From positions 1-64,000 of the forward strand of contig NZ_MRCB01000001.1 of assembly GCF_001904635.1 (NCBI RefSeq): DNA of 64,000 bases, written 5' to 3'. Below are positions 33,720 to 58,063 of the stretch, one piece after another (the stretch's first letter is position 1; the number at the start of each line of letters is the position of its first letter). The notes below the pieces were generated by a model, which was not told the DNA's origin, searched no databases, and saw only the letters and a program-made list of their open reading frames with translations. This stretch comes from Hydrococcus rivularis NIES-593. Its GTDB lineage: Bacteria; Cyanobacteriota; Cyanobacteriia; Cyanobacteriales; Microcystaceae. Both the position numbers and the translations under genes were made by a program.

Positions 33720-36087
33720 GTCTATAATTCCTCTCAACTTCTTTCATCCAAGCAACTGCTAGTTCTCCAATTTCTCTCCGATAAACTGAGCCAACTGGTG
33801 TTTTAGTTTGCCATATTTCCATCAGTTTGGCTGCTTCTGGTCGAATAGAACTTGGTAAATTATTTAAACGTGGAACAAGCCACCTCATTAGTGGTAACCA
33901 AACCCGCCATACAGGAACAGGGTTGAGCATTAAAATTGGGAGCAACTCATTAAGAGGCTTATTCGGTTCTTTTAAAAAAGGCAACAGTGAAAAATCAGGA
34001 TTTACTTCTACAGTCCGCAGCGCCACTAGCAATTGTGTCAAACGTTGAGCATCATCTGATACAAGCAGTGGCTCTGCTTGGTCAAGCAAATCGGGCGCAC
34101 GAGGCGAAATTAGGGGAGCAGTCAGTAGAGCCTGTCGCCATCTAGGAGACAGGTCATTTGCTTGTTCAACATCTCTGACTAACTGCACCCAGGTGTCAGT
34201 TTCATTTTTTTCAAGCAGAGAAGCTCCCAATAGTTGAACAGCCCGAAATAATCCTATTGGCTGACCAATTTTTTGAAGATATGAAACCAATTCTTCCCGA
34301 TTTTGGTCTAAAACCCGACAAATTACCCAATCTTCCAGCAAATCATGACGGAAGCGATACACATCCCGACGCGGGACTCGCGAAATTATTTGGTCAGATT
34401 CAAGAGAAATAAGGGCATCAGGAGATATTTCGTCAACCAAAAGGCGATTTCCTGGTAAGTTAACAACTTGTCTGCCCAGTTTCAAAAGTGCTTGTCGTTT
34501 CGCAATACCAAGAACACGATCTTTATCTACTTCGCCTACAACCCTTTCCCACCAAACCTCACTGACTTCTATCTCTGTAGCAATTGGCGGTAGTGGTTCT
34601 GAATCTGGGAGCATTCGTTGGTCTTCCAGTAAACTTAGCATAAATGGATTTTTAATCACTGCTTCCAGTTGAGTCAGTAATAAAAGTGGCTTTAAGCGAG
34701 GGCTATGCTCGATAATGCTTTGTAGTTCTTCGGTTGTTAGTTCTGGTATTGCTAGCGTTTTTGGTTTTCCCAAAACTCTCAAATCGATCCAAGTATGAAC
34801 CTCTTGAAGGTTTTCCTCTCTCACTGAAACAACAACTGTCCAGTGTCGAGAGCCATCTTCACTCAGAGGAAAATTGGCTAGACTACGGAGCAAATCATTT
34901 ACAACCTTGCGTCTGCCAGAATCAAAAATCTTATCAATACCGTCAATAAAAATTGCGGGTTGAGGACTGCTACTGGCTGCTAATAGTAATTTAGCTAAGG
35001 GTTGAGTCAGTTGTAGGTCGTTAGCATAACTACTCCAGCCTGTACCGCTCATGCGATCGCCTGCGAACAAAATTACGGGTCCCTCTCCCTGTTGAATTTC
35101 AACCAGTGCTTTCAACACCGCAGATTTACCAGCACCAGGCGAGCCAACCAATTCCAGCAGTCTTGTTTCTCGCATCATTTCTCTAGCAGCAGCGACTAGG
35201 TTAGTTCGGCTGAGGGTAAGACCGCCAATATCAGTACGTATGTCTTGCAACACAAATTCTGCTTCCTGCTGCAACTTTTGCAGGTCAGCACGGCAGTCTG
35301 GAGATGGAACTAGGGCAAAATGTAATTGTAATCTTTGTCTAAGTGTTTCTGTATTAAAACTGCCAGCAGTTCGATTGGTTTCTGCTGCATACTCAACAAG
35401 TTGAGCAAAAAGCTGGGGAGAATCAGCTTTTTTATCTGGACTTAATAACTGGCTAATTATCTCGACAGTATAAGTGTAATCACGCGACCCCTCGCGTTGA
35501 AAGTCAAAGTACAGAATGACCATCGAGCGCAGGAATTGCCATAGCTCGTCATCACTAACATTGCTTCCCTGGTAACTATCCAATTTTTTGCGGATTAATT
35601 CAACAAACTTACGCTGTTCTTTATTTGATAATCCTTGTTGGGCAATTCTTTTTAGAAAATCACCAGCATTAGCACTGTTACGCGCCCAGCTGAGAACACT
35701 TTGGTAGTTTTCATCTATATTTTTTGAATAAAGTGCAATAACAATACCAAAACGGTCAATTCCAATGTTAAATTTAGGGGACTTAAATGTTTCCCAGCAA
35801 GCAAGTATCACCTCATCAAATGTCTCGTCTTTCTCACCAAAGGTGAGGTCGCGCTTGACTTGGAGCGCAAGTTTTACCTCACCAACGGTCAGGTCTGCAA
35901 TGATAACAAGGTCGTCTAACGGTTCTCCCTCAAAAAGGCGCTGAAAACGCACTTCCCGTGTAATACCCGCCTCTAAACCACGGGGAACGGAACCAAGTAA
36001 TAGCGCTGCTAAATAGTAAGCACCAACACGCTTTTCGTAGTCACTTCCACCACCTCCAGTAGAAACGGGGCTTGCAACCTTGGTCAT
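33712..36087 (-). CDS. Nuclease-NTPase fusion (Cap4-like nuclease plus STAND-type ATPase)
   Basis: 791 aa. Residues ~10-110 form a PD-(D/E)xK-type domain (GGSDYEKRVGAYYLAALLLG; DDLVIIADL..ALQVKRDLTFG), close in pattern to Cap4/DUF4297 dsDNases. Residues ~300-500 hold a P-loop NTPase: Walker A VGSPGAGKSAVL ~316 and Walker B AIFIDGIDKIF ~379, then a winged-helix-like segment (RVPRRDVYRFRHDLLEDWVICRVL) typical of STAND proteins. The C-terminus is helical. It is translationally coupled to the large helical gene that follows. Likely a DNA-degrading defence system triggered by a sensed signal. Confidence 0.75.
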   Translation of the reverse strand: MTKVASPVSTGGGGSDYEKRVGAYYLAALLLGSVPRGLEAGITREVRFQRLFEGEPLDDLVIIADLTVGEVKLALQVKRDLTFGEKDETFDEVILACWETFKSPKFNIGIDRFGIVIALYSKNIDENYQSVLSWARNSANAGDFLKRIAQQGLSNKEQRKFVELIRKKLDSYQGSNVSDDELWQFLRSMVILYFDFQREGSRDYTYTVEIISQLLSPDKKADSPQLFAQLVEYAAETNRTAGSFNTETLRQRLQLHFALVPSPDCRADLQKLQQEAEFVLQDIRTDIGGLTLSRTNLVAAAREMMRETRLLELVGSPGAGKSAVLKALVEIQQGEGPVILFAGDRMSGTGWSSYANDLQLTQPLAKLLLAASSSPQPAIFIDGIDKIFDSGRRKVVNDLLRSLANFPLSEDGSRHWTVVVSVREENLQEVHTWIDLRVLGKPKTLAIPELTTEELQSIIEHSPRLKPLLLLTQLEAVIKNPFMLSLLEDQRMLPDSEPLPPIATEIEVSEVWWERVVGEVDKDRVLGIAKRQALLKLGRQVVNLPGNRLLVDEISPDALISLESDQIISRVPRRDVYRFRHDLLEDWVICRVLDQNREELVSYLQKIGQPIGLFRAVQLLGASLLEKNETDTWVQLVRDVEQANDLSPRWRQALLTAPLISPRAPDLLDQAEPLLVSDDAQRLTQLLVALRTVEVNPDFSLLPFLKEPNKPLNELLPILMLNPVPVWRVWLPLMRWLVPRLNNLPSSIRPEAAKLMEIWQTKTPVGSVYRREIGELAVAWMKEVERNYRRD

Positions 36088-43983: not shown

Positions 43984-45228
43984 ATGTTAAAAGAACTTCA
44001 CCTCCAGCAAGTTGGACCTGCTGCCCACTTTGATGTCGCATTTGCCGATAGGCTCAATATATTTACAGGTGATAATGGTTTAGGTAAAAGTTTTTTACTA
44101 GATATCGCTTGGTGGGTGATGACTACAAATTGGGTAGAACAACCAGCGTACCCACAGCGAGTCAGAGGTGAAAATCCGCAAATTACAGGAATAGTTAGCA
44201 ATAAAAAAGATATAAGAGAATATCAGAGTTACTTTGATTTTTCTGAACAAAAATGGCGTAGTTTACAAATGCCTCCTTTATTAAAAGAGGTCGTTATTTA
44301 TGTACGGGTTGATGGTAGTTTTTCTGTTTTTGACCCAGCTCGCCAACGCGATATTGCTTATAATTTTAATCCAAATACACTCTGGAATGGATTAAAATTA
44401 AAAAATAAAGTTCTTTGTAATGGTTTAATTCAAGATTGGGTAACATGGCAAAATCAACCAAATAAATATCCATTTCAACTATTTTCTAATGTTATTAAAA
44501 AACTTGCACCTCACCCTTCAGAATGGATAGAAGTGGGAGAATCAACGCGAGTTTCTATTGAAGATGTGCGCGATATTCCTACTGTTAACCTACCTTACGG
44601 GAATGTTCCTGTCACTCAAACATCAGCCGGAATGAAGCGTATTCTGGGACTAGCTTATTTACTAGTGTGGACTTGGTACGAACATAAAAAAGCTGCTGAA
44701 TTACGGCAACAAAAGCCAGTAAATCAGATAGTTTTACTAATTGATGAAATTGAATCTCATTTACATCCTCGTTGGCAGAGAGTGATTTTACCAGCTATTT
44801 TAGCTGTAGTGAAAGAATTACAACCCAGAATGAAGATACAGGCTTTAGTAACTACTCATTCTCCTCTTGTTCTTGCTTCCTTAGAGCCAAATTTTAATGA
44901 GGAAGAAGATCAACTATTTTTATTTAAATTACAAGATAGAGAAGTTAGCCTTGATGAAGTACCTTGGTCAAAACAAGGGGATACAGTTGGATGGTTAACC
45001 TCTGAAATTTTTGGTCTCAAACAAGCCCGTTCCAAAGAAGCAGAAATCGCAATTGAAGCAGCAGAGGCTTGGATGCGTAATGATGATATGAATGCGTTTC
45101 CAGAACACTTGAGAAGACCAACACAAATCCATCAGGAACTTCAAAGAGTTTTACCAGGACATGACCCATTTTGGCCCCGTTGGATAGTTACAACGGAGAA
45201 AAGAAATTTTGGGTTATCAGAGGTATAA
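43984..45228 (+). CDS. SMC/ABC-like ATPase of a Septu-type pair (PtuA-like)
   Basis: 414 aa. Walker A FTGDNGLGKSFLL ~30-42, a signature-like TSAGMKRILGLAYLL ~213, Walker B IVLLIDEIESHLHPRW ~246-261 and an H-loop TTHSPLVL ~288. This is the OLD/RecF-like arrangement found in PtuA and other defence ATPases. ATG start; the stop (TAA 45226) lies 5 bp before the next gene's ATG. Together with the HNH gene it forms a Septu-like two-gene system. Confidence 0.75.
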   Translation: MLKELHLQQVGPAAHFDVAFADRLNIFTGDNGLGKSFLLDIAWWVMTTNWVEQPAYPQRVRGENPQITGIVSNKKDIREYQSYFDFSEQKWRSLQMPPLLKEVVIYVRVDGSFSVFDPARQRDIAYNFNPNTLWNGLKLKNKVLCNGLIQDWVTWQNQPNKYPFQLFSNVIKKLAPHPSEWIEVGESTRVSIEDVRDIPTVNLPYGNVPVTQTSAGMKRILGLAYLLVWTWYEHKKAAELRQQKPVNQIVLLIDEIESHLHPRWQRVILPAILAVVKELQPRMKIQALVTTHSPLVLASLEPNFNEEEDQLFLFKLQDREVSLDEVPWSKQGDTVGWLTSEIFGLKQARSKEAEIAIEAAEAWMRNDDMNAFPEHLRRPTQIHQELQRVLPGHDPFWPRWIVTTEKRNFGLSEV

Positions 45229-45233
45229 CACAG

Positions 45234-45821
45234 ATGATGCCATTTAATCCTCCTCCAGAACCGCCTGATTTTGATGAAAAAGTGCGACAACCGGGAAATA
45301 CTTGGTTGGAAAAAAATCCTGATCCCAAAAAAGGAACCAGAGATTATTGGTCGCCTTTCAAAAGTTATTTAGCCGATGGATTTAATAATCTTTGTGGCTA
45401 TAGCGTTATGTATGAACCAGTTGGGACAGTAGATCATTATCGCAGCCGTGAAAATTATCGCAATTTAGCTTATGAATGGAGCAATTTACGCTTTGCTTCT
45501 GCTTGGATTAATAGTAGTAAAGGTACGCTTGACGACCAGGTGCTTGATCCTTTTGATTTGGGAGAAGATTGGTTTGAAATTTTACTTCCTTCCCTACAAT
45601 TAGTATTAACAGATAAAGTTCCTCCGCAACAACTTCAAAGGGCAGAATTTACTTTGGAACGGTTGCGGTTACGGGATGACGAAAGAGTCTTGCGCCAGCG
45701 TCAACAATGGTATCAACTTTATTTGGATGGTGATTTGACTCTACAAGGATTAGAGAAAAAAGCCCCTCTGATAGCTCGCGCGGTAAAGAAACAGCAGCAG
45801 GCTATTTCTCAACAAGGGTAA
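45234..45821 (+). CDS. HNH-like effector nuclease (PtuB-like)
   Basis: 195 aa from ATG 45234; an earlier start at 45171 would overlap the ATPase in another frame and is unlikely. Residues ~54-95 (LCGYSVMYEPVGTVDHYRSRENYRNLAYEWSNLRFASAWINSSKG) are an HNH core: D-H at ~67-68, the Asn of SNLRF and a following N for the last His. Degenerate in the last metal ligand but standard for Septu PtuB. Follows the ATPase directly, so the pair acts together. Confidence 0.7.
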   Translation: MMPFNPPPEPPDFDEKVRQPGNTWLEKNPDPKKGTRDYWSPFKSYLADGFNNLCGYSVMYEPVGTVDHYRSRENYRNLAYEWSNLRFASAWINSSKGTLDDQVLDPFDLGEDWFEILLPSLQLVLTDKVPPQQLQRAEFTLERLRLRDDERVLRQRQQWYQLYLDGDLTLQGLEKKAPLIARAVKKQQQAISQQG

Positions 45822-46212
45822 GCTTTGCAGTTATTAGATTGTGAAGGCAAGTATTTTTATAACATGAGACTGCAAGATAAATGGGTAAAAGTTCGATGAA
45901 CTTCTCACAGGCTATTAAGTCCCATATTTCGTTATATATTTCTGTTAGAGTAATTTTTTATTAAAAGAGTATTTTTTTTATTGTTTTTACTCATATATAC
46001 AAACGTGCTTGCATTATCAACAGGCAGTATGTAACTTGGCTAGTGTGCAGTTTATTTGGAGATAGGTTGAACTATAGATGTATTTGAGTTGAGCTATACC
46101 TGTACTAAACTGGCATATTTGGTAAATTATTTTCTAATTTATAAACAGTTTAGTAATTTGCTAGTTTAATTCGCTTCTCATTGATGTTGTCTTTCACTTG
46201 GAATTGAGTTTG
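45822..46212. other. Boundary region between defence island and plasmid module
   Basis: 391 bp, AT-rich, with no gene. It should hold the promoter for the plus-strand module that begins at 46213. A tRNA-like look around 45840-45910 was tested and rejected. Confidence 0.4.
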
Positions 46213-46611
46213 ATGATATGTGAAAACGTTATCTATACCCAAAAAACACTTGCCGAAAGATACGGGATTTCAATCTCTGCTTTACAAAAGTGGTATCCCT
46301 ATGCCGGTATAGTCAAACCGCGAAAGCGGGGAGGATATTTTGATGCAGCAACAGTTGAGATTGCTGATGTTTTCTACGTTGCTACCAAAATTCGGCGGTT
46401 GACGTATAAGGAATATTTACAGCAAGTAATTCCTGCTGGTGGCTTAGATGCTTATTTACAAAAAGTTAATGGCTTAACTCTTTATAACTTTTTGACCAAG
46501 CATATATCTGATGAAGAAAAAAATAACCCGATTGTGCAATCAGTAATTAGGAGAATTGAGCGCAATGAAGCATATCAACAAAGTGGCAGAGACTTTGCAG
46601 GTGTCGCCTGA
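46213..46611 (+). CDS. MerR/HTH-like DNA-binding protein
   Basis: 132 aa from ATG 46213 (an in-frame TTG at 46198 would add 5 residues). The first ~45 residues, YTQKTLAERYGISISALQKWYPYAGIVKP, form a helix-turn-helix with a MerR-like wing (RKRGGYFDAATVEIAD). The C-terminal half is helical. First gene of the module, so probably its regulator or a plasmid-maintenance factor. The next gene starts 47 bp inside it in another frame. Confidence 0.55.
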   Translation: MICENVIYTQKTLAERYGISISALQKWYPYAGIVKPRKRGGYFDAATVEIADVFYVATKIRRLTYKEYLQQVIPAGGLDAYLQKVNGLTLYNFLTKHISDEEKNNPIVQSVIRRIERNEAYQQSGRDFAGVA

Positions 46612-47185
46612 TGTAGTACGTACCTGCTGTCGGTTGTTAGATTTAGCTTTGCAACCAAATGATACGCTTGACGAAACAATCGAACAGCAATTAGTTCAAC
46701 TCAAAGAGATAGCTTCTCGTGAAGGTATGTCCCTTGAAGAAGCTGCCCAGCACTTGATTGCAATGCGCGATCGCAAATCAGAAGTAGGCGAACATAAGTT
46801 CGACAAGCGCGAGTATATTAAACAGCGATTTGGCGTAGATCCAGAACAAGCTTCCCCCGATAGTTTTGTAGGAATACTGTACCGGGATGCAGACAGGGGA
46901 ATTCAGTTAGGAGAATTACGCCATAAAGTAGTGCTTGAATCTTCCACACTTGCTCTAGAAGAATTTGTTTTTCATGGCAGTAGTTCGCTGGCTGAAGGTA
47001 ATACTTCCGTTGCGGCTGGTTACGACCAGGCGCAAGAGCGAATCAATTCGCGTATTGATAACGATTTTTTCGGCAAGGTGAACTGGGGGGAAGAGACTCA
47101 TCCTCTGTTGGTCGGTACATCGACACCGCAGCCCAGACAGTTGAAGTCCTCGCAGCCGAAAACCGGGCAATCTCAGAAGAAATAG
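46565..47185 (+). CDS. HTH-containing hypothetical protein
   Basis: 206 aa from ATG 46565. It opens with a helix-turn-helix-like stretch (VAETLQVSPDVVRTCCRLLDL) and a helical middle; a low-complexity tail (STPQPRQLKSSQPKTGQSQKK) ends in tandem TAG TAG. Overlaps the upstream gene by 47 bp, implying coupling. No enzymatic motif. Confidence 0.5.
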   Translation: MKHINKVAETLQVSPDVVRTCCRLLDLALQPNDTLDETIEQQLVQLKEIASREGMSLEEAAQHLIAMRDRKSEVGEHKFDKREYIKQRFGVDPEQASPDSFVGILYRDADRGIQLGELRHKVVLESSTLALEEFVFHGSSSLAEGNTSVAAGYDQAQERINSRIDNDFFGKVNWGEETHPLLVGTSTPQPRQLKSSQPKTGQSQKK

Positions 47186-47193
47186 TAGCTCAG

Positions 47194-47448
47194 ATGTTAC
47201 CCATCTGCTATCGAATACGGGATGAGAGTTTACTTAATTTGAGAAAAACATCTACCCAAGCAGTTGGTATAAATTTACTTTCGGTAGTAGCTGGTACTGT
47301 GGTTGGGACATGGGTAGCGATTCCCCCAACGCGGGATAAACAGGAGATTTACAGCATCCAGCCAATTTTAGTGGGTGTAGGCATAGGTGAATTAGTTGGT
47401 TTAATTCTGGCACTAGTAGTTATTTGGTTTTCCAGGGAGCAGGTATGA
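47194..47448 (+). CDS. Small two-TM membrane protein
   Basis: 84 aa. Hydrophobic segments at ~26-43 (INLLSVVAGTVVGTWVAI) and ~58-79 (ILVGVGIGELVGLILALVVIWF). ATG 47194, 6 bp after the tandem stops of the previous gene. The next ATG overlaps its TGA (ATGA). Conserved position within the module suggests an envelope component. Confidence 0.55.
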   Translation: MLPICYRIRDESLLNLRKTSTQAVGINLLSVVAGTVVGTWVAIPPTRDKQEIYSIQPILVGVGIGELVGLILALVVIWFSREQV

Positions 47449-47663
47449 GTGCAGCATTTGATTTTTTGGTCAACACTGCGGGTGGTTTGTTAATGAACTT
47501 GGGTGTTTCTGGGATGGTAGGACAGCTATTGGGAGTGGGGGCCACGCTTGCCCTGCATCCTCTGTTGCTACTTACCGGGATAGTTGTGGGTGGTGCGGGA
47601 ATTGCGATCGCACGCGAGTTAAACAAGCGCCCTCAGTTGCAGTTGGTTGTTGATAATACGTGA
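47445..47663 (+). CDS. Small hydrophobic membrane protein
   Basis: 72 aa from ATG 47445, overlapping the upstream stop by ATGA. Nearly all of residues 5-55 is hydrophobic (VNTAGGLLMNLGVSG; LLLLTGIVVGGAGIAIAREL), about two membrane segments with Gly-rich packing. Reminiscent in size of small conjugation-pilus or lipid-embedded subunits, but no family recognised. Confidence 0.5.
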   Translation: MSAAFDFLVNTAGGLLMNLGVSGMVGQLLGVGATLALHPLLLLTGIVVGGAGIAIARELNKRPQLQLVVDNT

Positions 47664-47673
47664 GGGGTAAATT

Positions 47674-48516
47674 ATGTTTACTCCTACACCTGTACGAAAT
47701 AAACAACCAAGTCGAAGAAGACAAAAGGTAAATGTTACCTTGTGGACGGTGTGTTCGACTGTTAGTGCGCTGTCTGTTATTGGGGCGGTTGCATTAATGG
47801 TTGGATGGAAGCAACAAATTCCAGGTAATCAGATATCGGAGGTACAGCAAGTAAAGGCGCAAGTTGCCCAAATTCGAGAAGTGTACTTAGAAAAGCTTTC
47901 CCGTACTGACTACAATATAGACCATCTGTCTAGTTACTCCTCAGTAGAAGGTGCGCCTACTCTTACAGGCTGGCGACAGTTAGCGGCGGCATTGTGGGGA
48001 CAGCAACTGCGGGGTGAAATATCCAGGATGCAGGCTAATGAGAAATCTGGGTTTTACCGCCTTCACTATATGCCGGCACTGGAGATAGTTAAGTTCAACT
48101 CGCTGGATGTGTTACTAGAAGCGGCTTCTGGAAATAATAGTTTTTACTGGGGATACCGCAAAACCGATGGTACGAAAGTTGAGGAGAAGATACCAACCGG
48201 GGCTGCTGCTGTTTTGATCTTGGGTAAATTAGAGGCGATTGATTACGCCCAGAATTTGGAATCTCAACCATCGGTCGATCTGAATCAAATGCTAATTCAG
48301 ATTAGGAATGCTCAAGAACCATACTCGCTTGCACAGGCGCAGTTATTACGGGCGCGAGGGTATTTAGATCCAGTAGAGCAGATGGCACAGGTGGCAGATA
48401 TCCGCGAGAAAATACGCCAGAAGGAGGAACAAAGGCGAATATATCTCCAACAAATGAAGAAGCAATTACCTCAGCCAATTCCTAATAGAAAGCCTGTTAA
48501 TAAATCAGGGGAGTGA
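47674..48516 (+). CDS. Single-pass membrane protein with coiled-coil tail
   Basis: 280 aa. Basic N-terminus (RNKQPSRRRQK), one TM helix at ~22-44 (VTLWTVCSTVSALSVIGAVALMV), then a long mostly helical part outside, ending with a charged coiled coil (REKIRQKEEQRRIYLQQMKKQL). Positive-inside topology puts the tail outside the cytoplasm. Its shape suits a scaffold in an envelope-spanning complex. RBS GTGAGGGG before ATG. Confidence 0.55.
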   Translation: MFTPTPVRNKQPSRRRQKVNVTLWTVCSTVSALSVIGAVALMVGWKQQIPGNQISEVQQVKAQVAQIREVYLEKLSRTDYNIDHLSSYSSVEGAPTLTGWRQLAAALWGQQLRGEISRMQANEKSGFYRLHYMPALEIVKFNSLDVLLEAASGNNSFYWGYRKTDGTKVEEKIPTGAAAVLILGKLEAIDYAQNLESQPSVDLNQMLIQIRNAQEPYSLAQAQLLRARGYLDPVEQMAQVADIREKIRQKEEQRRIYLQQMKKQLPQPIPNRKPVNKSGE

Positions 48517-48520
48517 TGTC

Positions 48521-49087
48521 ATGTATGTTAAGTTTGCTGCTGCGATAATTTGCATAGCTTTGTGTTCGCTCAATGTTGTAGCGGCAGTCAAACGTACCCC
48601 TATTCGTACTACCCTGGAAGGTTCAACTCGCACAACGATTGAGATGATGCCATCTCCCAATTCAGGAGTGCATTGGATGAGTGCAGTTATATTTCTGGCT
48701 GGGTTTACTTGTTTCTTGAGTTGGGGAATTTCTGACTATAACAATGCAGTTGAAGAAACAGATGCAGTGTCTGAAAATTTGGGAAAATCTGGCAATCAAC
48801 AACTTCATGCTGGTGTTTCTAATACTGATATTCAGCCTTCTTTAATCCCCCCAGTTTCGCCTCCTGGGATGAGATTTAATAACGAGTTTTCTGCTAAGAA
48901 TGTCGTTCAATTTTCTCCTCGTTCTACTGTTTCTGGATTAGGGCGAGTAGATAGTAGTGAGTTTCTTGAAGATGGAGTACAAAATCAACCTGGAATGTTA
49001 TCTCCAGAGGAGTTTTACGCCCAACTTCAAGATGAAGATTTTTGGGAAGATACTAACTCCCAAATAAATAATAAACCAGCCGGCTAG
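48521..49087 (+). CDS. Exported/membrane protein, unknown
   Basis: 188 aa. Residues 1-23 (MYVKFAAAIICIALCSLNVVAA) look like a signal peptide or TM anchor, with a second TM at ~50-70 (GVHWMSAVIFLAGFTCFLSWGI); the rest is polar, Pro/Ser-rich and ends acidic (SPEEFYAQLQDEDFWED). Starts 5 bp after the previous stop. Unknown family. Confidence 0.5.
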   Translation: MYVKFAAAIICIALCSLNVVAAVKRTPIRTTLEGSTRTTIEMMPSPNSGVHWMSAVIFLAGFTCFLSWGISDYNNAVEETDAVSENLGKSGNQQLHAGVSNTDIQPSLIPPVSPPGMRFNNEFSAKNVVQFSPRSTVSGLGRVDSSEFLEDGVQNQPGMLSPEEFYAQLQDEDFWEDTNSQINNKPAG

Positions 49088-49109
49088 TTAGTTAATTTGA
49101 GGTCATATT

Positions 49110-49598
49110 ATGAGTAGAAATCAACGCCGTAATTTTGATGTTGATTATTCTGAAGGTGGAGCAATTGTGCCTGCCAATCGGTTGCAAAATATGTTGCAGC
49201 AGGTACAGCAAGGAGGAATGGTAAATCACCAACCTAACATTTCTCCTATGACCACTTATGATACTCAACCCGTAGAAGTTAGGTATATTAATGCACCTAC
49301 TGCTTATAAGCCGAGAGTTCCTCAGATAGAAATTCCCTACATTGAGACTTGGAAAGCACATCGGCTACACCCGCAGAATCCCTGGAGATTTGGCTGGTAT
49401 CCAGTATATTTTTTATCAGATGTAATTAAATCTCCTGTGGGTGTCGCTGCTGTAGGAGTGTGGTTATTAATAATGCTGTTGAATTTTCTCCTTAATGGCA
49501 GTTATACCGGGCCAGGATATGCAGCTGGGAAAAAGATTGAAGTTGTACCCAAGGAAGTTCCTTCTTTTGCCCTGCCTGTGGTTAAGCAGTTGGATTAA
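49110..49598 (+). CDS. Bitopic membrane protein, unknown
   Basis: 162 aa. Polar N-terminal ~105 residues, one TM at ~110-130 (VGVAAVGVWLLIMLLNFLLNG), short external tail. ATG 49110. It ends with TAA at 49596-49598, overlapping the next ATG (TAATG). This is the only main gene of the module that ends in TAA. Confidence 0.5.
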   Translation: MSRNQRRNFDVDYSEGGAIVPANRLQNMLQQVQQGGMVNHQPNISPMTTYDTQPVEVRYINAPTAYKPRVPQIEIPYIETWKAHRLHPQNPWRFGWYPVYFLSDVIKSPVGVAAVGVWLLIMLLNFLLNGSYTGPGYAAGKKIEVVPKEVPSFALPVVKQLD

Positions 49599-49936
49599 TG
49601 TGGGTAAAGGCAATTTTTTGGTTCGTACTGCTGGTGTGGATTGCAGATCTCTTGCAACCGGGGTATTTGCAGTTTTATAACTGGCGTAATGTTGTGGCGT
49701 TGGCACAAAAGCTTCAATTTTTATCGCCAGCTGTTGTCTCTACTACACCTAGTGTGAATATATCTTCTAATCCTGTCTCTACGCGCTATTCCCCTAAAGT
49801 TAAGGAATCTGCAACATCCGGAAATGGACTAAATTCTCCTGATTGCCGTGTAGCTCAGAATGATTTTGAAGAAATATTGAGTAGTGCAAAGATTGGTTGT
49901 TGGCAGGTTTCTCCTGCTAATGCAAAAAGGCGTTGA
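49598..49936 (+). CDS. Small secreted/membrane-anchored protein
   Basis: 112 aa. Signal-like start (MWVKAIFWFVLLVWIADLLQPGYL), then Ser/Pro-rich polar sequence. ATG overlaps the previous TAA. The following M23 gene starts 4 bp after its TGA. No family recognised. Confidence 0.45.
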   Translation: MWVKAIFWFVLLVWIADLLQPGYLQFYNWRNVVALAQKLQFLSPAVVSTTPSVNISSNPVSTRYSPKVKESATSGNGLNSPDCRVAQNDFEEILSSAKIGCWQVSPANAKRR

Positions 49937-49940
49937 GACA

Positions 49941-50591
49941 ATGCGAATAATCTTTGAAACTGACGGTAAAAAGGAGGTTAGTAATTCGACTGTAACTAGT
50001 TTGGATGAGACAGCCGATACTAATTCGAGTGAAAGTTGGAGATATGCGATCGCAACCTCAGTTGTCATTGCAGCTATGGTCATTCCCCAGATTTCTGGAT
50101 GGATTGAATCTCAATTATTAGTTAAATCTCTCCAGAATCTAATACTACCTAGAACTGTTGTTAGTAATCAGGTTTTAAATAACGGTCGAATTGCCTTTCC
50201 TACTGCGGTTGGTACTCCTGTAACTAGTGAATTTGGTTGGCGGACACACCCCATTACAGGCGATCGCAAGTTTCACAGGGGAATTGATTTTGGCGCAGCC
50301 AAGGGTACGCCAATTTATGCGATTGATGCTGGCCGAGTAGCTTTTGCGGGTGACAAGGATGGTTACGGCAAAGCAGTTGTTATTCAGCATCAGGGAAGTT
50401 TATCTACTCTCTACGGTCATGCTAGTCAGCTGTATGTGCAGCAGGGACAACAAGTTGTCCGTGGGCAGATGATTGCAGCAGTAGGTAGTACGGGGTTTTC
50501 GACGGGGCCACATTTACATTTTGAGGTTCACGTTAATGGTGTAGCGCAGAACCCCCGTCCTTATTTACACGAGTATATAGCTAATCGTTGA
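49941..50591 (+). CDS. M23 (LasA/LytM-type) peptidoglycan endopeptidase
   Basis: 216 aa from ATG 49941; an upstream in-frame start at 49884 lies inside the previous gene. One TM at ~34-50 (YAIATSVVIAAMVIPQISG), then the M23 domain: TSEFGWRTHPITGDRKFHRGIDFGAAKGTPIYA with zinc ligands His and Asp in HRGID, and HLHFEVHVNG carrying the HxH ligands. Complete, so probably active. Membrane-anchored cleavage of cross-links in the wall, as in conjugation or secretion systems. Confidence 0.8.
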   Translation: MRIIFETDGKKEVSNSTVTSLDETADTNSSESWRYAIATSVVIAAMVIPQISGWIESQLLVKSLQNLILPRTVVSNQVLNNGRIAFPTAVGTPVTSEFGWRTHPITGDRKFHRGIDFGAAKGTPIYAIDAGRVAFAGDKDGYGKAVVIQHQGSLSTLYGHASQLYVQQGQQVVRGQMIAAVGSTGFSTGPHLHFEVHVNGVAQNPRPYLHEYIANR

Positions 50592-50617
50592 AAGTTATTT
50601 AGCTATTGGCAAGAGCA

Positions 50618-51442
50618 ATGCAAATTGTACCGATTTTTATATCAGGTGTGGTTGGTGCAGCCTGCTCCGTTGCATTTTCTTTCGGAGTAGCTTCACTGCC
50701 ATGTGGATTGGTATCAAAGGGTGCGGATAGTGTTTGCCAAGTGCGTAGTTTCGGTAAGGCAGTTGATAGTTGGAAATTTGGGTTTATTGTTGGTGGTTTA
50801 GTAGGATTGGTTTTCAGTCCTCGTCATCAATTTATATTCCGTTTTCAACCCATTCATTTGTCAACTGCTTCTTTAATTACTTTAGGCATTTATTTCTCAA
50901 TTTCTCAAGGTAATAGTGTTTCTTCATTGTCGTCAAATAGTTTAAGAAGCAGAGTTAATACAAGTTCTTATTCACCACATCTTTATTCACCACGTTTGAG
51001 TGCTTTTTTAGCAACAATTCGTTGGGCAGAAACAGGAACCAGTGAGCCAGAAAGTTATCGCAAGTTAGTATTTAACGGAACTTTTAATAATTTTTCTACA
51101 CACCCGTTAAAGAAACAGTGCGCTCCTATTAATGGTAAAAATGTTTGTTCAACTGCGGCTGGTGCTTATCAAATGTTGGATATAAGTTGGTATGACCTTC
51201 AGCCAAAGTTAAACTTAAAAGATTTTAGTCCAGCTTCTCAGGACAAGATGGCAATTGAATATATTCGTCGTAATAATGCCTTAAGTGACATTGAAGCAGG
51301 AAGGTTTGATACTGCTGTATGCAAAGTAGGTAGAATTTGGGCCAGTCTTATTTGCAACTCGTACAATCAAAACCCAAAATCTTTAGAAGAGTTACGTAAT
51401 TATTATCAAAAAATGTTGGTAGTTTATGGAAGTCAAAAATAG
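50618..51442 (+). CDS. Lambda-R-type lytic transglycosylase/lysozyme (GH104-like)
   Basis: 274 aa from ATG 50618 (an in-frame TTG 50606 is possible). N-terminal TM helices (IFISGVVGAACSVAFSFGVASL; SLITLGIYFSIS), then an endolysin domain close in pattern to phage lambda R: IRWAETGT with the catalytic Glu, STAAGAYQMLDISWYD, KDFSPASQDKMAIEYIRRNNALSDIEAGRFDTAV and IWASLICNSYNQ. Together with the preceding M23 gene it gives a paired wall-opening set. TAG stop; the antisense homing endonuclease gene overlaps its last 10 bp. Confidence 0.75.
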   Translation: MQIVPIFISGVVGAACSVAFSFGVASLPCGLVSKGADSVCQVRSFGKAVDSWKFGFIVGGLVGLVFSPRHQFIFRFQPIHLSTASLITLGIYFSISQGNSVSSLSSNSLRSRVNTSSYSPHLYSPRLSAFLATIRWAETGTSEPESYRKLVFNGTFNNFSTHPLKKQCAPINGKNVCSTAAGAYQMLDISWYDLQPKLNLKDFSPASQDKMAIEYIRRNNALSDIEAGRFDTAVCKVGRIWASLICNSYNQNPKSLEELRNYYQKMLVVYGSQK

Positions 51443-52566
51443 GGTAAAGGTTTGTGCCATTTACGTTTTAACTTAGGTACATTAACTTGAGATAGTATTT
51501 TCCATAATTCTATTCCTCGTTTTCCTGCTACATGATATCGATAAGCTTTTGAATTCATGCTTTGTTTGGGTTTAGCACATTTGTAGTGATTATTAGGAAC
51601 CCAAATATCAAACCAGTTTTTTACCCAATTGAGTACTTCTATTGTTCCTGTGAGGTCTATTTCTATGCTATTAACTTTTTCTTTGACTTTGAATAAGTTT
51701 ACGCCACCATCCCCATCTATTAATCCGATAATGAATGCTTTTATCAATTGCTCATTATCTAGAACAGGAGGTTCAAGAGTCAAAGATTTATTTGGTGTAA
51801 TATTAAATCTGCTAATTAAATCATCACATATTTGTTTACTGTTTATTCTCAATCTAAAGGCTTTACCATTAGTGTAGGTTTTCCCAAATGGATATTGATG
51901 TTTTTGATTAGAATTATGCATTTCGGCTATTTGACGATCGCATTCAAGTGAATCCTTTAATGTTTTTAAATGCTCTAAATCTTGTTCCTGTAGTCCAACT
52001 TCTAAAATATAACCATGACTTGAATAATTTATGCATCCATCAGCTGCTAAAAATCCTGCCCAATAGCAATTTTCTAAATTTGGAGTGCTAAAATAATTAT
52101 GATTAACTGTGTACGACTCAAGTTTTCTTAATTTCATTGCTTGAGCTTTAGCTCTTACCCCTGCTTCGTTTCTACCTAATTTTTTTCCTATGACCTCATA
52201 AGTTTCAGTTAAATAGTTATCTTTGAGGTATCGCATTTCATCTTTTGTCCATCTATGGCGTTGTTTTAGGTTAAGTCTTTGTGCTTTAGCGTGAATTGCG
52301 GGAAGAGTTCTATGAGGCATGAACTGAGATTGTATCATCTTTGGTGATAACTCAGAGTAAAGTTCATGTAATATTTCTTCTTCCTCGACAGTCCATTGTG
52401 GTTCAAGTGTTAATCCTAGTAACCTCAGTTTTCCTTTTACTGATTGTCTACTTCTATATGGAAAATATTCCTGATGTATTTCATCAATATTTGAGCATTT
52501 TGTAACTAATCTAGCAAGAAGTTTTTCTTCCTCTGCATTCCACTTATTCCAATTTTTCATAGTCAA
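51433..52566 (-). CDS. LAGLIDADG homing endonuclease with SANT/Myb-like repeats
   Basis: 377 aa. The N-terminus has three SANT/Myb-like repeats (WNAEEEKLLARL, WTVEEEEILHELY, WTKDEMRYLKDNY). Two LAGLIDADG motifs follow: WAGFLAADGCI and FIIGLIDGDGGV, the second the more canonical. A monomeric (two-motif) enzyme. Its position, antisense between two module genes with no intron or intein visible around it, suggests a free-standing mobile gene. ATG start, TGA stop. Confidence 0.75.
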   Translation of the reverse strand: MTMKNWNKWNAEEEKLLARLVTKCSNIDEIHQEYFPYRSRQSVKGKLRLLGLTLEPQWTVEEEEILHELYSELSPKMIQSQFMPHRTLPAIHAKAQRLNLKQRHRWTKDEMRYLKDNYLTETYEVIGKKLGRNEAGVRAKAQAMKLRKLESYTVNHNYFSTPNLENCYWAGFLAADGCINYSSHGYILEVGLQEQDLEHLKTLKDSLECDRQIAEMHNSNQKHQYPFGKTYTNGKAFRLRINSKQICDDLISRFNITPNKSLTLEPPVLDNEQLIKAFIIGLIDGDGGVNLFKVKEKVNSIEIDLTGTIEVLNWVKNWFDIWVPNNHYKCAKPKQSMNSKAYRYHVAGKRGIELWKILSQVNVPKLKRKWHKPLPYF

Positions 52567-52615
52567 TTTTTTATTCTTTAACTCAATTTTATCATCCTAA
52601 TAATTGAGAAAAATA

Positions 52616-54793
52616 ATGTTAGAAATGTATACTGATAATAATAATACTGAAATTCAAAAACAACAGCTTTGGACTGCAATTGTACAGGCCAAACAAGATG
52701 GTTTGAGCAATGAAGAGATTGTAGAGAATGTACAAGAAGCTTTACCGGAAGCAATGATTTCTTATGCTGAAACTGTTTTAAAGCAGATTGATTTTAGAGC
52801 AAAATTATCACGTCCAGTTGTTGAATTTAATTTAGAATTTTTATTTCAGGTAATATATGAATCAGTAATTGCAGGTACAAACGATGATGAAATATTATCA
52901 ATATGTGCAGAACATTGTACTTTAAATCAGTACGAGTTTGTACGTTATGCACTTGAATATATCCATCTCAATCGAATGCCCTCACAGTGGGAGCAACATA
53001 ACGTGTATCAAAAAATGATTGAGATAGTTAGCATCTCGCCAATAGAATCTTTATTTGAATATATAGAATCCATCAAAAATATTTATCTCAAGCAGATTGG
53101 TTATAAAGTAGTTCAGGAGAATCTTTATAATTTATTTTTGAGCAATAAAGGAACTGGTTATTTTACTGATTTAGCAAATAAATCGAGAGATAACTTTATT
53201 AAAAACTATTGCTGTCGAACGGCAGTGCTTGTTGCGCGTGCCACAGGTAAACCATTAGATTTAAAAATGACAGGTAATGGCTCAATTCTTTTAAAAGAAC
53301 CTAAATATTTGGATAGGGAAATTGCTAATAATGAGATTGTTAGCTCAAATATTTTAACTATGGGGCAAGCAGGAAAACTATTAGTTGATACTTTAGAAGA
53401 TTTTAATATTAATGCTAAGTATGTTGATGCCAAAAATGGCCCCACTTTTAACCGTATTAGGGTAAAACTGGGACGGGGTGTTAGTTATAAAAAAGTAGAA
53501 GATATCGGTAATGACTTAGTACAGCAGCTTGGTGAAGAATTAGGCTTAAAAGTTGCGCCAATGGTGAGTGTAGTGCCTGGGGGAGTTGTATTTGACATAC
53601 CCAGGTTAGACAGACAATTTGCTTATTTCCGTGATTACTTTACTTTTGACGGCGAACCTGACATTTATTCTGTGTCTATCCCCGGTGGTGTTGATGTTGA
53701 TGGCACTTATGTCGAAATTCCCCTTTATAGCGATAACGTGACTCATATCCTGGGTGGTGGGCGGACGCGGGGTGGAAAATCCCAGTTTGAGAAAGCCGCA
53801 ATCTTATACTTAGTGCGACGATATCCCCCTTCTGTTGTGCGATTGGCACTTTCAGATGTTAAACGTGTGACCTTTGGTAAATTTGATGGGCTTCCCCATC
53901 TTGTTGCCCCAGTTGCACGTGATGCAGAGTCTACTGCTAACTTACTCGATTACTTGGTCGAAGAAATGGAATTGCGCTACCAGGAATTTGAGCGCCACAG
54001 CAGCATTGAAACGATCTCACAGTACAACTCACGCTTTGCACCTGATTGTGTCATGCCACGAGTAATTTGTCTAATTGACGAGTGTTTTGACCTACTTTCC
54101 GATGATAACTACTGCGATCGCATTGAGACTGCGCTGATGAAGTTGCTTGCAAAAGCGGGTGGTGCGGGGATTCATGTATTGTTATATACTCAGCGACCTG
54201 ACAAAAACGTGATAGACCCGTTGATTCGCTCAAACTTTCCAGCGAAGACAGCCTTTGTTACAACCCGTCCTGAAGATAGTTGTATTATCCTTGGGGACGA
54301 TAAAGACAAGCGTGCAGTTTATTTGCTGGGATACGGTGATTTTTTGTACAAGACGACTGAAGTTTTACGACTCCAAGCTTTATATGTTGCTGACGATGAA
54401 GACCCTGAATACTTCCAGCAATTACTCTTGGAAGCAAAAAACCATAACGATCCTTATACAGCATGGAAATCTGGGTTAGATTTTGATGAATTTGTCGCTA
54501 GTCTGTATGGCGAGAGTCGTAGTAATGATAATGGTAAATTTAAAGCCACTACTGCTACTAAAACTAAGCAGTCTAAGACTGATTTTGAGGGCAGTTTTAG
54601 TTTTAAGGTGCAGCTTGACGAAGAAGCAAGAAACTCAATTATGAATTTGCATCAAAAGGGCTATCAACTTGATGAAATTGTCAAAGCAGTATTCAATTTA
54701 TCCCGTCAAGATGGTAGGTCATACAAGAAATTTAGAAACGTTGTCGAAGAATTTTTAAATAACTTTAAAGGTGGCGGTGAAGATGATATTTGA
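52616..54793 (+). CDS. FtsK/SpoIIIE-type DNA translocase
   Basis: 725 aa from ATG 52616 (a TTG at 52604 is possible). The C-terminal half is an FtsK motor: Walker A GGGRTRGGKSQFEKA ~380-394, Walker B VICLIDECFDLL ~482-493 and QRPDKNVIDPLIRSNFPAKTAFVTT. The N-terminal ~330 residues are helical and not membrane-spanning; a C-terminal tail has a helix-turn-helix-like end (YQLDEIVKAVFNLS). Soluble single-polypeptide FtsK motors drive dsDNA transfer in actinobacterial TraB and AICE systems. The following RusA-like gene overlaps its end. Confidence 0.8.
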   Translation: MLEMYTDNNNTEIQKQQLWTAIVQAKQDGLSNEEIVENVQEALPEAMISYAETVLKQIDFRAKLSRPVVEFNLEFLFQVIYESVIAGTNDDEILSICAEHCTLNQYEFVRYALEYIHLNRMPSQWEQHNVYQKMIEIVSISPIESLFEYIESIKNIYLKQIGYKVVQENLYNLFLSNKGTGYFTDLANKSRDNFIKNYCCRTAVLVARATGKPLDLKMTGNGSILLKEPKYLDREIANNEIVSSNILTMGQAGKLLVDTLEDFNINAKYVDAKNGPTFNRIRVKLGRGVSYKKVEDIGNDLVQQLGEELGLKVAPMVSVVPGGVVFDIPRLDRQFAYFRDYFTFDGEPDIYSVSIPGGVDVDGTYVEIPLYSDNVTHILGGGRTRGGKSQFEKAAILYLVRRYPPSVVRLALSDVKRVTFGKFDGLPHLVAPVARDAESTANLLDYLVEEMELRYQEFERHSSIETISQYNSRFAPDCVMPRVICLIDECFDLLSDDNYCDRIETALMKLLAKAGGAGIHVLLYTQRPDKNVIDPLIRSNFPAKTAFVTTRPEDSCIILGDDKDKRAVYLLGYGDFLYKTTEVLRLQALYVADDEDPEYFQQLLLEAKNHNDPYTAWKSGLDFDEFVASLYGESRSNDNGKFKATTATKTKQSKTDFEGSFSFKVQLDEEARNSIMNLHQKGYQLDEIVKAVFNLSRQDGRSYKKFRNVVEEFLNNFKGGGEDDI

Positions 54794-55247
54794 ACTAACC
54801 ATGCCTTTACCCCCTTGTATGAACGAAATTATTAACCAGGCACGGTCAAGTTGGCAAGCTAGTGCTGAACTTAAGAAGTATTGGACAAACTTAATTGGTG
54901 AATTTGTTAGAGAATGTGAATTTTGTTTTGATAGTACAGTGTGGATTGAGTTCCATTGGTATCTCAAAAATTTTGCACGAGATAGTGATAATGTAGCTGC
55001 CGCCGCTAAATTTATTATGGATGGGCTAGTTACAGGGCGAGCAATTCGTAACGATAACCTGACAGTTATCCAATCACCCGTTGTTCATTACTATCATCGC
55101 AGTAGTGGTGATGATGGTGTGCTGTTAAGACTTTCACAATCACCTGATTTCTTATTAGATAATTTTATTGTATCTAACCAATTCTCCAGACACAGTTTAG
55201 AAAAATACAATCAAAAAATCACACATTTAATTTCAAAACAATTGTAG
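54783..55247 (+). CDS. RusA-like Holliday-junction resolvase
   Basis: 154 aa from ATG 54783, overlapping the FtsK stop by 11 bp. The core RDSDNVAAAAKFIMDGLVTGRAIRNDN is the RusA metal-binding segment (D-x-DN..K...DgL.. .. .. DD-like). Short for the family but complete over the catalytic part. It likely resolves branched plasmid DNA during transfer or replication. Coupled to the translocase. Confidence 0.65.
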   Translation: MIFELTMPLPPCMNEIINQARSSWQASAELKKYWTNLIGEFVRECEFCFDSTVWIEFHWYLKNFARDSDNVAAAAKFIMDGLVTGRAIRNDNLTVIQSPVVHYYHRSSGDDGVLLRLSQSPDFLLDNFIVSNQFSRHSLEKYNQKITHLISKQL

Positions 55248-55268
55248 TTTATCTAAAGGATAATAGTA

Positions 55269-55748
55269 ATGTTGCGTTATCAAGAATATACTTGGTTGAT
55301 TGGTGAACTAAATGCAGGCAAGAATGTTAATTTATGGGGTAAACAGGATATTGGTAAGACTTTTACTGTGAAAAACTGTTTACTTAAAGATATTACTTTA
55401 AAGTCTGTTTATCTCAATCTTGAATATCCTTTTAGTGTGGCTCATCTATTTGATGTTATTCCTATGAGTTTTGATTTGTACTACCAGCAGGATTGGCAAA
55501 ATATAGTAACCGAATTATCTAATGGATTAAATGGGTTACTTGTGATTGATAATTTTGATAGATTGCACTTTGTTAGCGATAGTTTTAGCGACGATTCATT
55601 GAGATTACAACAGTTGGCTAAACTAGAAAATTTTTCTTTACTATTAATATCTCGGATGCCGCTAAGATGTTTCCATTTTACGGGTTTTGCTAACTGTTTT
55701 GAAGAATTGGAATTAAACGAAACTAATACTTGGACTTTTGGAAAGTAG
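55269..55748 (+). CDS. Small P-loop NTPase
   Basis: 159 aa. Walker A LWGKQDIGKTFTVKN at ~23-37 and Walker B GLLVIDNFDRLHFV at ~96-109 define an AAA/STAND-like NTPase of minimal length, lacking clear sensor and lid regions. 21 bp after the RusA-like gene. It may load or regulate the neighbouring translocase; function unknown. TAG stop 27 bp before a tRNA-like sequence. Confidence 0.5.
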   Translation: MLRYQEYTWLIGELNAGKNVNLWGKQDIGKTFTVKNCLLKDITLKSVYLNLEYPFSVAHLFDVIPMSFDLYYQQDWQNIVTELSNGLNGLLVIDNFDRLHFVSDSFSDDSLRLQQLAKLENFSLLLISRMPLRCFHFTGFANCFEELELNETNTWTFGK

Positions 55749-56019: not shown

Positions 56020-57285
56020 ATGTTGAAGAAGTTTGCGTTTAATGGCTTGAGAAATCTTAATGCTGCTTTTGGAATGGTGTCTTTGACTGCTATTGCTTTA
56101 GGCACTGTAGCAACTTTTTCTGGTTTGGGCTTATTGTACTTAGCTAGGGGCGGATTCCCAATAGTTGAGAAAGAACGCTCTGAACAAATTGCCTATATTG
56201 GCACTGGTGCTATTGTATTGGGCTTTACCGGAATTATTCTTGCTTCCTTGGGCGGTGCTTTCTTAAGCGTTGTTGAAGAATCGGAGGAAACTAATTCGAG
56301 TAGAGAAACTGCAAAAATAGCTGACATAAAACCGCTTGTATTAACAAAAGCTGAGAACTCTGAAGATTTTGATTGTCTGCCTTCAATTTACACTTACACG
56401 GTGATGAATTTTGAGAGACATCCTGATTCAAAGTGCTTGGTTGTTTCTAGATTTGAGGAAGAACCATATCGGAAATTCGTACTCTACCAAGAATTACATT
56501 CTCACCAAATTGACGACTTGGCAGTAATCTATGATGAAACCGATCCAGACGGATTAATTGGACAAACCTTCTCCTCTTATAAACCTTTACCTTGTGAAGC
56601 TTTAGAGGAGCATTTAGATATACACCGACGCTATATTAATGCAGTTAATAGCGAAGAATTTAGTTCTTGCTATTTGCGAGTATGTGCTGGGTGTAAGTTA
56701 CTGCACGGTGCCAATAATATTGTTTGTGGGATTCATCCATATGGATGTTTAGAAAATAGTTGCTGTCCAGATAAGCAATGGGATGAACGTAAGGCGTTGT
56801 TTCCATTTGAAGATGATGCTGTTGTCGAAAATTTAAATAGAGAAATATCGTCCAATCAAGCGAATATTTACAAATTTTACGGCAATCTTATCTTGTGGGA
56901 TGAATACGCTAATCGTAGGTTTTCTTTTTCCTATTCCGGTATCTTGCTTAAACATTCTGACAGACTGCTTGAGCTTGGTATGGAAGCAACACTTCTTTCT
57001 TACATCCAGTATTTCCGTACTCGAAATGTAGTGGTCTTTGACTATGTAGCATCAGGACGAGTTTTAGAGTTTACAAAGGAACTCAAGGGCATAGCTCAAA
57101 TCGAAGTTGATGGAGATGAAATATCTATCTTTTTTGATATATATGCGCCCTGTCATCGCTTTCGCCGTGATGGTGTATCACTGCATCCTTACTCAACTTT
57201 CGTTCCTCAAGAACTCAGATATAACTACAACTTGGTTAGCTACGTTAACTACCTTAAGAGTAAAAAATCTGGAGTGCTGAGATGA
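56020..57285 (+). CDS. Membrane protein with Cys-rich domain, unknown (421 aa)
   Basis: Two TM helices at ~20-45 (VSLTAIALGTVATFSGLGLLYLA) and ~58-85 (IGTGAIVLGFTGIILASLGGAF). A soluble part then contains CAGCKLLHG, CGIHPYGCLENSCCPDKQW, which looks like a metal-binding knuckle, and a beta-rich C-terminus. Strong RBS GGAGGG. The stop overlaps the ATG of a tiny ORF (ATGA). Unknown family, but placement in the module suggests an envelope component. Confidence 0.55.
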   Translation: MLKKFAFNGLRNLNAAFGMVSLTAIALGTVATFSGLGLLYLARGGFPIVEKERSEQIAYIGTGAIVLGFTGIILASLGGAFLSVVEESEETNSSRETAKIADIKPLVLTKAENSEDFDCLPSIYTYTVMNFERHPDSKCLVVSRFEEEPYRKFVLYQELHSHQIDDLAVIYDETDPDGLIGQTFSSYKPLPCEALEEHLDIHRRYINAVNSEEFSSCYLRVCAGCKLLHGANNIVCGIHPYGCLENSCCPDKQWDERKALFPFEDDAVVENLNREISSNQANIYKFYGNLILWDEYANRRFSFSYSGILLKHSDRLLELGMEATLLSYIQYFRTRNVVVFDYVASGRVLEFTKELKGIAQIEVDGDEISIFFDIYAPCHRFRRDGVSLHPYSTFVPQELRYNYNLVSYVNYLKSKKSGVLR

Positions 57286-57556: not shown

Positions 57557-58063
57557 ATGTCTGCTTTTGCAATATCGCCTTTTGTGCAATCTGTTAACGA
57601 TATTTTGTTTCCAATCGAGTTGTTTTTGATGGTCTTCCCAATCTTCTATGTGATATTTGTCCCTGCTCAATCAGTATCACTTCAAGTCAGTAATAGCGTT
57701 GGGGTGATTTCTGAAGAGTTGCCAGTTTTAGAAACTCATGGGAATTTGACTGGTGTTGGTGCTGTTTCTGTTCAGGAAGAATTTTCTAAACCGGAATCTT
57801 CCATTATTGAAACTGCGCCGCCAGTTGTTGAAACTGGGGTTGCGGATGAAGCTAGACAGCTTGTGCTGTTAGACGTTAAGGAAGAAAGGAAGAAGCTTTT
57901 GGATTTAGGTGCGCGGAAGCTGCGACAGTTCTGCAAAGAACGCCGAATTCAAGGCTATTCTACCGTCTACAACCGTAAAAAACTCAATGGACTCGTTGAT
58001 TTTCTGATTGCGCAACAAGTGACCTCTGCTCAAGTGGTCGAGTGTGTGGAAATGCTTGCTTAG
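57557..58063 (+). CDS. Membrane protein with SAP-like C-terminal domain
   Basis: 168 aa. Residues ~14-35 form a TM helix (IELFLMVFPIFYVIFVPA), a Ser/Glu-rich linker follows, and the end (DLGARKLRQFCKERRIQGYSTVYNRKKLNGLVDFLIAQQV) resembles a SAP/Rho-N-type nucleic-acid-binding fold. Same design as the 122-aa protein at 3460. Clear RBS GGAGG. It may connect the plasmid to the membrane (inference). Confidence 0.5.
   Translation: MSAFAISPFVQSVNDILFPIELFLMVFPIFYVIFVPAQSVSLQVSNSVGVISEELPVLETHGNLTGVGAVSVQEEFSKPESSIIETAPPVVETGVADEARQLVLLDVKEERKKLLDLGARKLRQFCKERRIQGYSTVYNRKKLNGLVDFLIAQQVTSAQVVECVEMLA

Follow-up and report, generated by a model that had tools for sequence, protein, structure and literature searches.

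A conserved gene module with an FtsK-type motor and two wall hydrolases on cyanobacterial conjugative elements

What is the role, in a cyanobacterium, of a run of genes that encodes a DNA motor, two cell-wall hydrolases and a set of small membrane proteins? We considered such a run in the window, by which we mean the whole analysed stretch of 64,000 nucleotides with which a 517 kb contig (C1) begins. An earlier note on this DNA had proposed a stand-alone conjugation system driven by a single FtsK-type motor. To our knowledge, little is known in cyanobacteria about how a conjugative plasmid establishes itself through a polyploid multicellular filament. The run is part of a well-conserved module that is apparently undescribed; the open-access literature searched held no published description of it.

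Composition of the gene block

The operon-like run spans positions 46,198–55,748 of the window and extends two genes further, to about 58,063. The open reading frames, gene order and coordinates that the earlier note gave for 46,213–55,748 were borne out. The module comprises about 14 genes, for a DNA motor, two wall hydrolases and small membrane proteins, in the order a-b-c-d-e-f-g-h-M23-TG-FtsK-(RusA)-(NTPase)-m421-n168, where TG is the transglycosylase and brackets mark optional members:

46,198–46,611, + strand: a137, which opens the module; probable start codon ATG at 46,213, giving 132 aa; weak helix-turn-helix; syntenic in relatives
46,556–47,185, + strand: b209, soluble protein; dN/dS 0.03–0.09
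47,194–47,448, + strand: c84, small protein with two hydrophobic segments; syntenic
47,445–47,663, + strand: d72, 72-aa membrane protein; 46–100% identity in the alignment; dN/dS 0.00–0.03
47,674–48,516, + strand: e280, single transmembrane (TM) segment followed by a soluble domain; module marker
48,521–49,087, + strand: f188, a signal-like hydrophobic segment followed by a second one, and a polar tail
49,110–49,598, + strand: g162, single TM segment; conserved motifs WKAHRLHP and NFLLNGSYTGPGYAAGKKIEV; module marker, 47 loci
49,598–49,936, + strand: h112, membrane anchor at the N-terminus; evolves fast
49,941–50,591 (reading frame open from 49,884), + strand: membrane-anchored M23 endopeptidase; PF01551, 1.1e-35; TM segment
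50,618–51,442 (reading frame open from 50,606), + strand: lambda-R-type transglycosylase; membrane region at the N-terminus; matches 1am7/3d3d and phrog_90
51,433–52,566, − strand: insertion of a LAGLIDADG/Myb endonuclease-like gene, with TG and FtsK on either side; not a module member
52,604–54,793, + strand: FtsK-type dsDNA translocase; PF01580, 3e-21; PF17854, 2e-7
54,771–55,247, + strand: RusA-like Holliday-junction resolvase; phrog_1682, 3.6e-18
55,269–55,748, + strand: NTP159, 159-aa P-loop protein; optional module member; AAA_22, 1e-3, below cut-off
56,020–57,285, + strand: m421, membrane protein containing a Cys/His-rich stretch; extends the module by synteny (Calothrix)
57,557–58,063, + strand: n168, membrane anchor at the N-terminus; syntenic extension of the module (Calothrix)

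Hydrophobic segments are present in six small proteins (c84, d72, e280, f188, g162 and h112), in agreement with the small membrane proteins of the earlier note, and in the N-terminal parts of the M23 endopeptidase and the TG. None of the membrane proteins of the module matched a known family in Pfam or NCBIfam. The protein d72 is among the most conserved of the module. The marker e280, which matched 13 plasmid records only in a protein search of such records, likewise belongs to no known family that was matched, and its AF2 model is poor (pLDDT 50). The label "phage terminase large subunit", which RefSeq attaches to relatives of e280, found no support in Pfam or PHROGs.

DNA-binding proteins had been placed at the start of the block; the first gene, a137 (dN/dS 0.11–0.17), gave a weak HTH_3 match (E = 0.005, below the cut-off of the Pfam search), and the second, b209, showed practically no such signal and no family above the cut-off in the Pfam profile search. 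The NTPase assignment holds in so far as NTP159 carries a P-loop AAA signal, but this is weak; the gene was not detected in most Calothrix-type loci. The resolvase was confirmed by its PHROGs match. The LAGLIDADG/Myb gene (LAGLIDADG_3, 5e-6; Myb, 3e-5) is a mobile gene in the operon spacer, 67–97% identical in some relatives and missing from most.

Both wall hydrolases of the earlier note are well founded, the first by its M23 profile match and the second by comparison of TG with the lambda lysozyme structures 1am7/3d3d (E ~1e-15) and with the endolysin family phrog_90 (3e-35). Glu142 of TG occupies the position of the lambda catalytic Glu and is invariant in the alignment of relatives. The two enzymes are fused in one reading frame in several Calothrix-type loci (L111, L119, L120 and L126). 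On all seven module-bearing plasmids tested, the module supplies the sole M23 gene and the sole strong lambda-type transglycosylase. A GH23/SLT (VirB1-type) gene was found on none of 14 plasmids (seven with the module and seven module-free), so that plasmids with the module obtain their wall hydrolases mainly from it. Among the seven module-free plasmids tested that carry a type IV secretion system (T4SS), six had no M23, SLT or lambda-type TG gene.

The translocase matches FtsK_SpoIIIE (3.1e-21) and FtsK_alpha (2.3e-7), in line with the FtsK-like motor that had been proposed. It consists of a helical N-domain with no TM segment (residues 1–214), the alpha and beta motor domains (about 250–632) and a three-helix C-terminal domain (673–722); the Walker residues T388, G391, K392 and S393 and the pair D492 and E493 are invariant in 19 relatives. 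In comparisons by VIA, whose matches cover residues of about 245–635 only, the model, which is of moderate quality (pLDDT 70), gave Z = 27 against the FtsK motors 6t8b/2iut and Z = 19 against TcpA and T7SS ATPases. As modelled, the plasmid motor is closest to dsDNA FtsK in sequence and predicted structure, before TcpA and the T7SS ATPases. In place of a membrane anchor the motor has a helical, soluble N-domain, from which it is natural to infer that FtsK docks on the membrane proteins encoded alongside. The clt-like repeat that the earlier note had suggested looking for did not appear: searches for tandem repeats, direct repeats and over-represented 8-mers returned no clt- or KOPS-like repeat. 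It should be noted that the only FtsK_SpoIIIE match over the cut-off in the source genome is this plasmid gene, and the host seems to have no chromosomal FtsK.

The carrier element and the distribution of the module

No VirB4 or relaxase had been seen by the earlier note, which is correct for the window (there is no VirB4 ATPase within 46–58 kb) but not for the element. Positions 1–170.8 kb of C1 and a second contig, C20, align with the closed plasmid of Tolypothrix PCC 7601 (214,962 bp), mostly at 92–97% identity and for the larger part in collinear order. Together they make up an element of ~240 kb, about 95% identical to closed conjugative plasmids, with the following transfer genes:

C1:79,181–80,629: MOBP relaxase, 15 kb past the window end on the same contig; MobB adjoins
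C20:4,404–7,229: VirB4
C20:14,352–16,136: VirD4

VirB10 is likewise on C20. A relaxase, a VirB4 and a coupling protein thus occur on one element, which is what identifies a conjugative plasmid. The earlier note had named a VirB4/relaxase set on the same replicon as the finding that would speak against a stand-alone single-motor system, and in view of this set its proposal is not supported. Such a set can be overlooked because the Pfam model PF03135 misses this plasmid VirB4 family, detecting it in 0 of 12 cases; the VirB4s were found by direct protein search.

Past about 172.2 kb, C1 has a different G+C content and genes that we take, from their N-termini and by eye, to be infB, secA, pheT and aspS, so that this part would be host chromosome. 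The plasmid part meets it at about 172,242, exactly inside a transposase whose other half lies at the right end of C20. The halves are continuous in Nostoc CENA543, and in the source ~50 bp of other sequence lies between them; one simple circle of C1:1–172,242 and C20 was rejected on account of this interruption. The junction is either a plasmid integration or an assembly misjoin, with the element being either a free circle or integrated.

Several other genes of the window deserve mention. A Septu pair (43,984–45,821, + strand; PtuA, E = 3e-187; PtuB, E = 1e-76; PADLOC) lies directly upstream of the module, in a stretch that varies among relatives and carries DISARM-, helicase- or methyltransferase-like genes in several of them. 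Two adjoining genes at 30,900–36,087 (− strand) each correspond to one half of a PADLOC model for an Avs4-like STAND NTPase and are possibly a split Avs-type defence gene. A TnsB-like transposase (PADLOC TnsB, 2e-12) with neighbour genes at 11,172–15,060 (− strand) possibly belongs to a Tn7-like element.

The gene order of the module recurs in 47 loci, as found by a g162 alignment scan and synteny, leaving aside loci truncated at contig ends and a small number of local gaps; all 47 come from heterocystous filamentous genera. The earlier note had asked for gene order to be compared elsewhere, and the order is thus kept. Values of dN/dS were 0.00–0.42 over the module genes wherever computable, indicating purifying selection, which is strongest on d72, e280, g162 and b209 (0.00–0.09) and amounts to 0.12–0.22 for FtsK. 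Given the recurrent order and these values, the block is more than a chance assembly.

Relatives of the plasmid VirB4 family were found in 111 plasmid records, and the marker e280 in 13, all of them within those 111, indicating that the T4SS does not need the module and that the module is found where the T4SS is. The VirB4 family extends to Gloeothece, Chroococcidiopsis and Acaryochloris as well. Laboratory strains that harbour the plasmid include Tolypothrix PCC 7601, T. variabilis ATCC 29413 and Nostoc C052. Ten of the 13 module records were typed as conjugative, two as mobilizable and one as non-mobilizable; two Calothrix module plasmids were typed MOBV only, yet match VirD4 and the plasmid VirB4 family.

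The association extends to chromosomes: for six of the eight chromosomal copies (four contigs, Calothrix-type genomes) a VirB4 or relaxase gene is found no more than 100 kb away, closer than expected from random placement (p about 0.0004; median distance, p about 0.001). The VirB4 proteins of these neighbouring T4SSs are 34–99% identical to the query VirB4. The exceptions are two copies on the chromosome of Calothrix NIES-4101 (L112 and L113), with the nearest VirB4 142 and 294 kb off; they are about 150 kb apart, on a contig with no PF03432 relaxase. Overall, the module is probably accessory to conjugative elements rather than stand-alone.

The source genome is not of the same family as G091 and G278, the heterocystous carriers with which it was compared. 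Either the plasmid has recently crossed families or the assembly is mixed; unless the latter holds, the module is not strictly confined to multicellular hosts.

Possible function and alternative explanations

Because the carrier plasmids already have a normal DNA-transfer machine, the module is probably a second, accessory device, and because its components fit a dsDNA pump that is anchored in the membrane and opens the wall, the likeliest guess at its role is still that it moves DNA. We tentatively regard the module as a second DNA-translocation apparatus, separate from the T4SS of the same conjugative element, and give this reading somewhat less than an even chance. Of the DNA-transfer function proposed earlier, the fit of the parts stands and the form lacking VirB4 and relaxase does not.

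In such an apparatus, c84, d72, e280, f188, g162 and h112, with m421 and n168, would form an inner-membrane complex, and the anchored M23 endopeptidase and lambda-R-type TG would make local openings in the peptidoglycan. FtsK, as a soluble ring, would dock on the complex and pump through it what is presumably dsDNA, in a direction likewise presumed, and the RusA-like resolvase could trim branched DNA. The likeliest use would be movement of the plasmid between neighbouring cells, for example across filament septa after T4SS entry, a cell-to-cell step modelled on the action of Streptomyces TraB/Spd. By this analogy the module might be a Gram-negative counterpart of TraB/Spd that, after T4SS-mediated entry, pumps the plasmid as dsDNA across filament septa, although we consider so specific a role rather doubtful. 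Spread between the cells of a filament would explain why scan hits come only from filamentous heterocystous genera, though the T4SS is distributed more widely. Several findings count against a wall-opening pump: the failure to find a clt or KOPS repeat, the lack of a TM segment in FtsK, its score of 20.5 bits on the NCBIfam TraB model NF041214 (cut-off 800), the membrane proteins that match no family, the NIES-4101 copies with VirB4 at least 142 kb off, and the source host, whose family differs from that of the heterocystous carriers G091 and G278.

The presence of relaxase, VirB4, VirB10 and VirD4 on the same element, together with the complete lack of GH23/SLT genes on the 14 plasmids, which leaves the module as main wall-hydrolase source, would suit a module that belongs to the element's own T4SS as an accessory and provides that conjugation channel with wall hydrolases and with a motor for dsDNA or for feeding substrates. 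We think this rather unlikely: the VirB4 family occurs in 111 records and the module in 13, six of the seven module-free T4SS plasmids do without any such hydrolase, a VirD4 is already there, and VirB4 identity to the query falls to 34% among the T4SSs that neighbour the module. The same transfer genes, on the ~240 kb element and its closed relatives, leave a stand-alone FtsK conjugation system in place of T4SS and relaxase unsupported and very improbable, given also that clt-like repeats were not found, even though the composition within the window is TraB/Spd-like.

The joint occurrence of FtsK and a RusA-like resolvase in one operon, on large plasmids and in a genome with no other FtsK over the cut-off, might instead point to plasmid segregation or dimer resolution, with FtsK pulling large plasmids through the closing septum, RusA resolving junctions and the hydrolases acting in division. 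This seems unlikely to us: ParA/ParB, ParM and a site-specific integrase are already encoded by the closed relative, segregation has no need of two wall hydrolases and six small membrane proteins, and the module is missing from most large cyanobacterial plasmids with the plasmid T4SS. A module for lysis, conflict or T7SS-like protein export with an FtsK-family ATPase is quite improbable. The lambda-type lysozyme and M23 enzyme do resemble endolysins, the motor shows weaker similarity to EssC/EccC, and a defence-rich stretch adjoins the module; but the FtsK alpha domain is present, EssC/EccC scores are far under cut-off, the hydrolases carry membrane segments, and PADLOC matches FtsK as a generic ATPase only. 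Prophage origin was also considered and rejected: IMG/VR holds no relatives of two module proteins, and phage records gave matches to the FtsK motor only (up to 35%) among the matches listed. Homologues are thus not limited to prophages with capsid genes, the other outcome that the earlier note had counted against its proposal.

A second DNA-translocation apparatus would be of interest in several respects. As a conserved motor and wall-opening module that the scan found only in heterocystous genera, it offers a direct genetic handle on plasmid establishment in filaments and could guide gene transfer into hard-to-transform strains. If the crossing of septa is real, conjugative elements of filamentous hosts would have a separate DNA-transfer machine for each of two kinds of barrier.

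Comparison with known systems

The module is not a prophage, a T7SS or a chromosomal FtsK. Its motor matches the alpha and beta domains of chromosomal FtsK/SpoIIIE at about 23–27% identity but has a soluble helical N-domain in place of the TM N-domain, gives no Pfam gamma-domain hit and belongs to a plasmid operon. It scores 58 bits on the EssC model (cut-off 778) and has a single ATPase domain, in contrast to the multi-ATPase architecture of T7SS proteins. TcpA of pCW3, which may move dsDNA (PMC12857230), is the next-best structural match after FtsK (VIA Z = 19); however, TcpA is the coupling protein of its own T4SS, whereas here VirD4 is present too and the motor is nearer FtsK (Z = 27).

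In Thermus transjugation, according to the parts of the source consulted, a single FtsK/HerA-superfamily hexamer, TdtA, encoded on the mobile element ICEth1, pushes DNA out of the donor (PMC5365140). TdtA differs in being HerA-like with a NurA neighbour, and those parts mention no wall hydrolases or membrane-protein set (PMC5365140). The VirB4/VirB10/VirD4 set and the relaxase of the present element are of the general kind known from cyanobacterial conjugative plasmids of the MPF_C type, such as pCC7120alpha (PMC8600333); the FtsK/wall-hydrolase module is an addition, found in 13 of the 111 plasmid records with this VirB4.

The closest analogy is with TraB/Spd of Streptomyces, in which an FtsK-type hexameric dsDNA motor acts with several small membrane proteins in multicellular hosts with cross-walls (PMC12857230); a 2025 review of T4SSs takes it as the FtsK-type transfer system, and the word cyanobacteria does not occur there (PMC12857230). 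The module likewise encodes an FtsK-type dsDNA motor together with small membrane proteins, but the latter show no similarity to Spd proteins in Pfam or NCBIfam and the motor falls far short of the TraB model. In Streptomyces, the C-terminal domain of TraB recognises clt, which is made up of 8-bp direct repeats; here, a three-helix C-terminal domain is present in FtsK with no clt-like repeat found. A further difference is that in the cyanobacterial element the motor shares its replicon with a T4SS and a MOBP relaxase and comes with its own M23 and lambda-type hydrolases. If the proposed role is true, FtsK-type dsDNA transfer would be extended from actinobacteria to the Gram-negative envelope.
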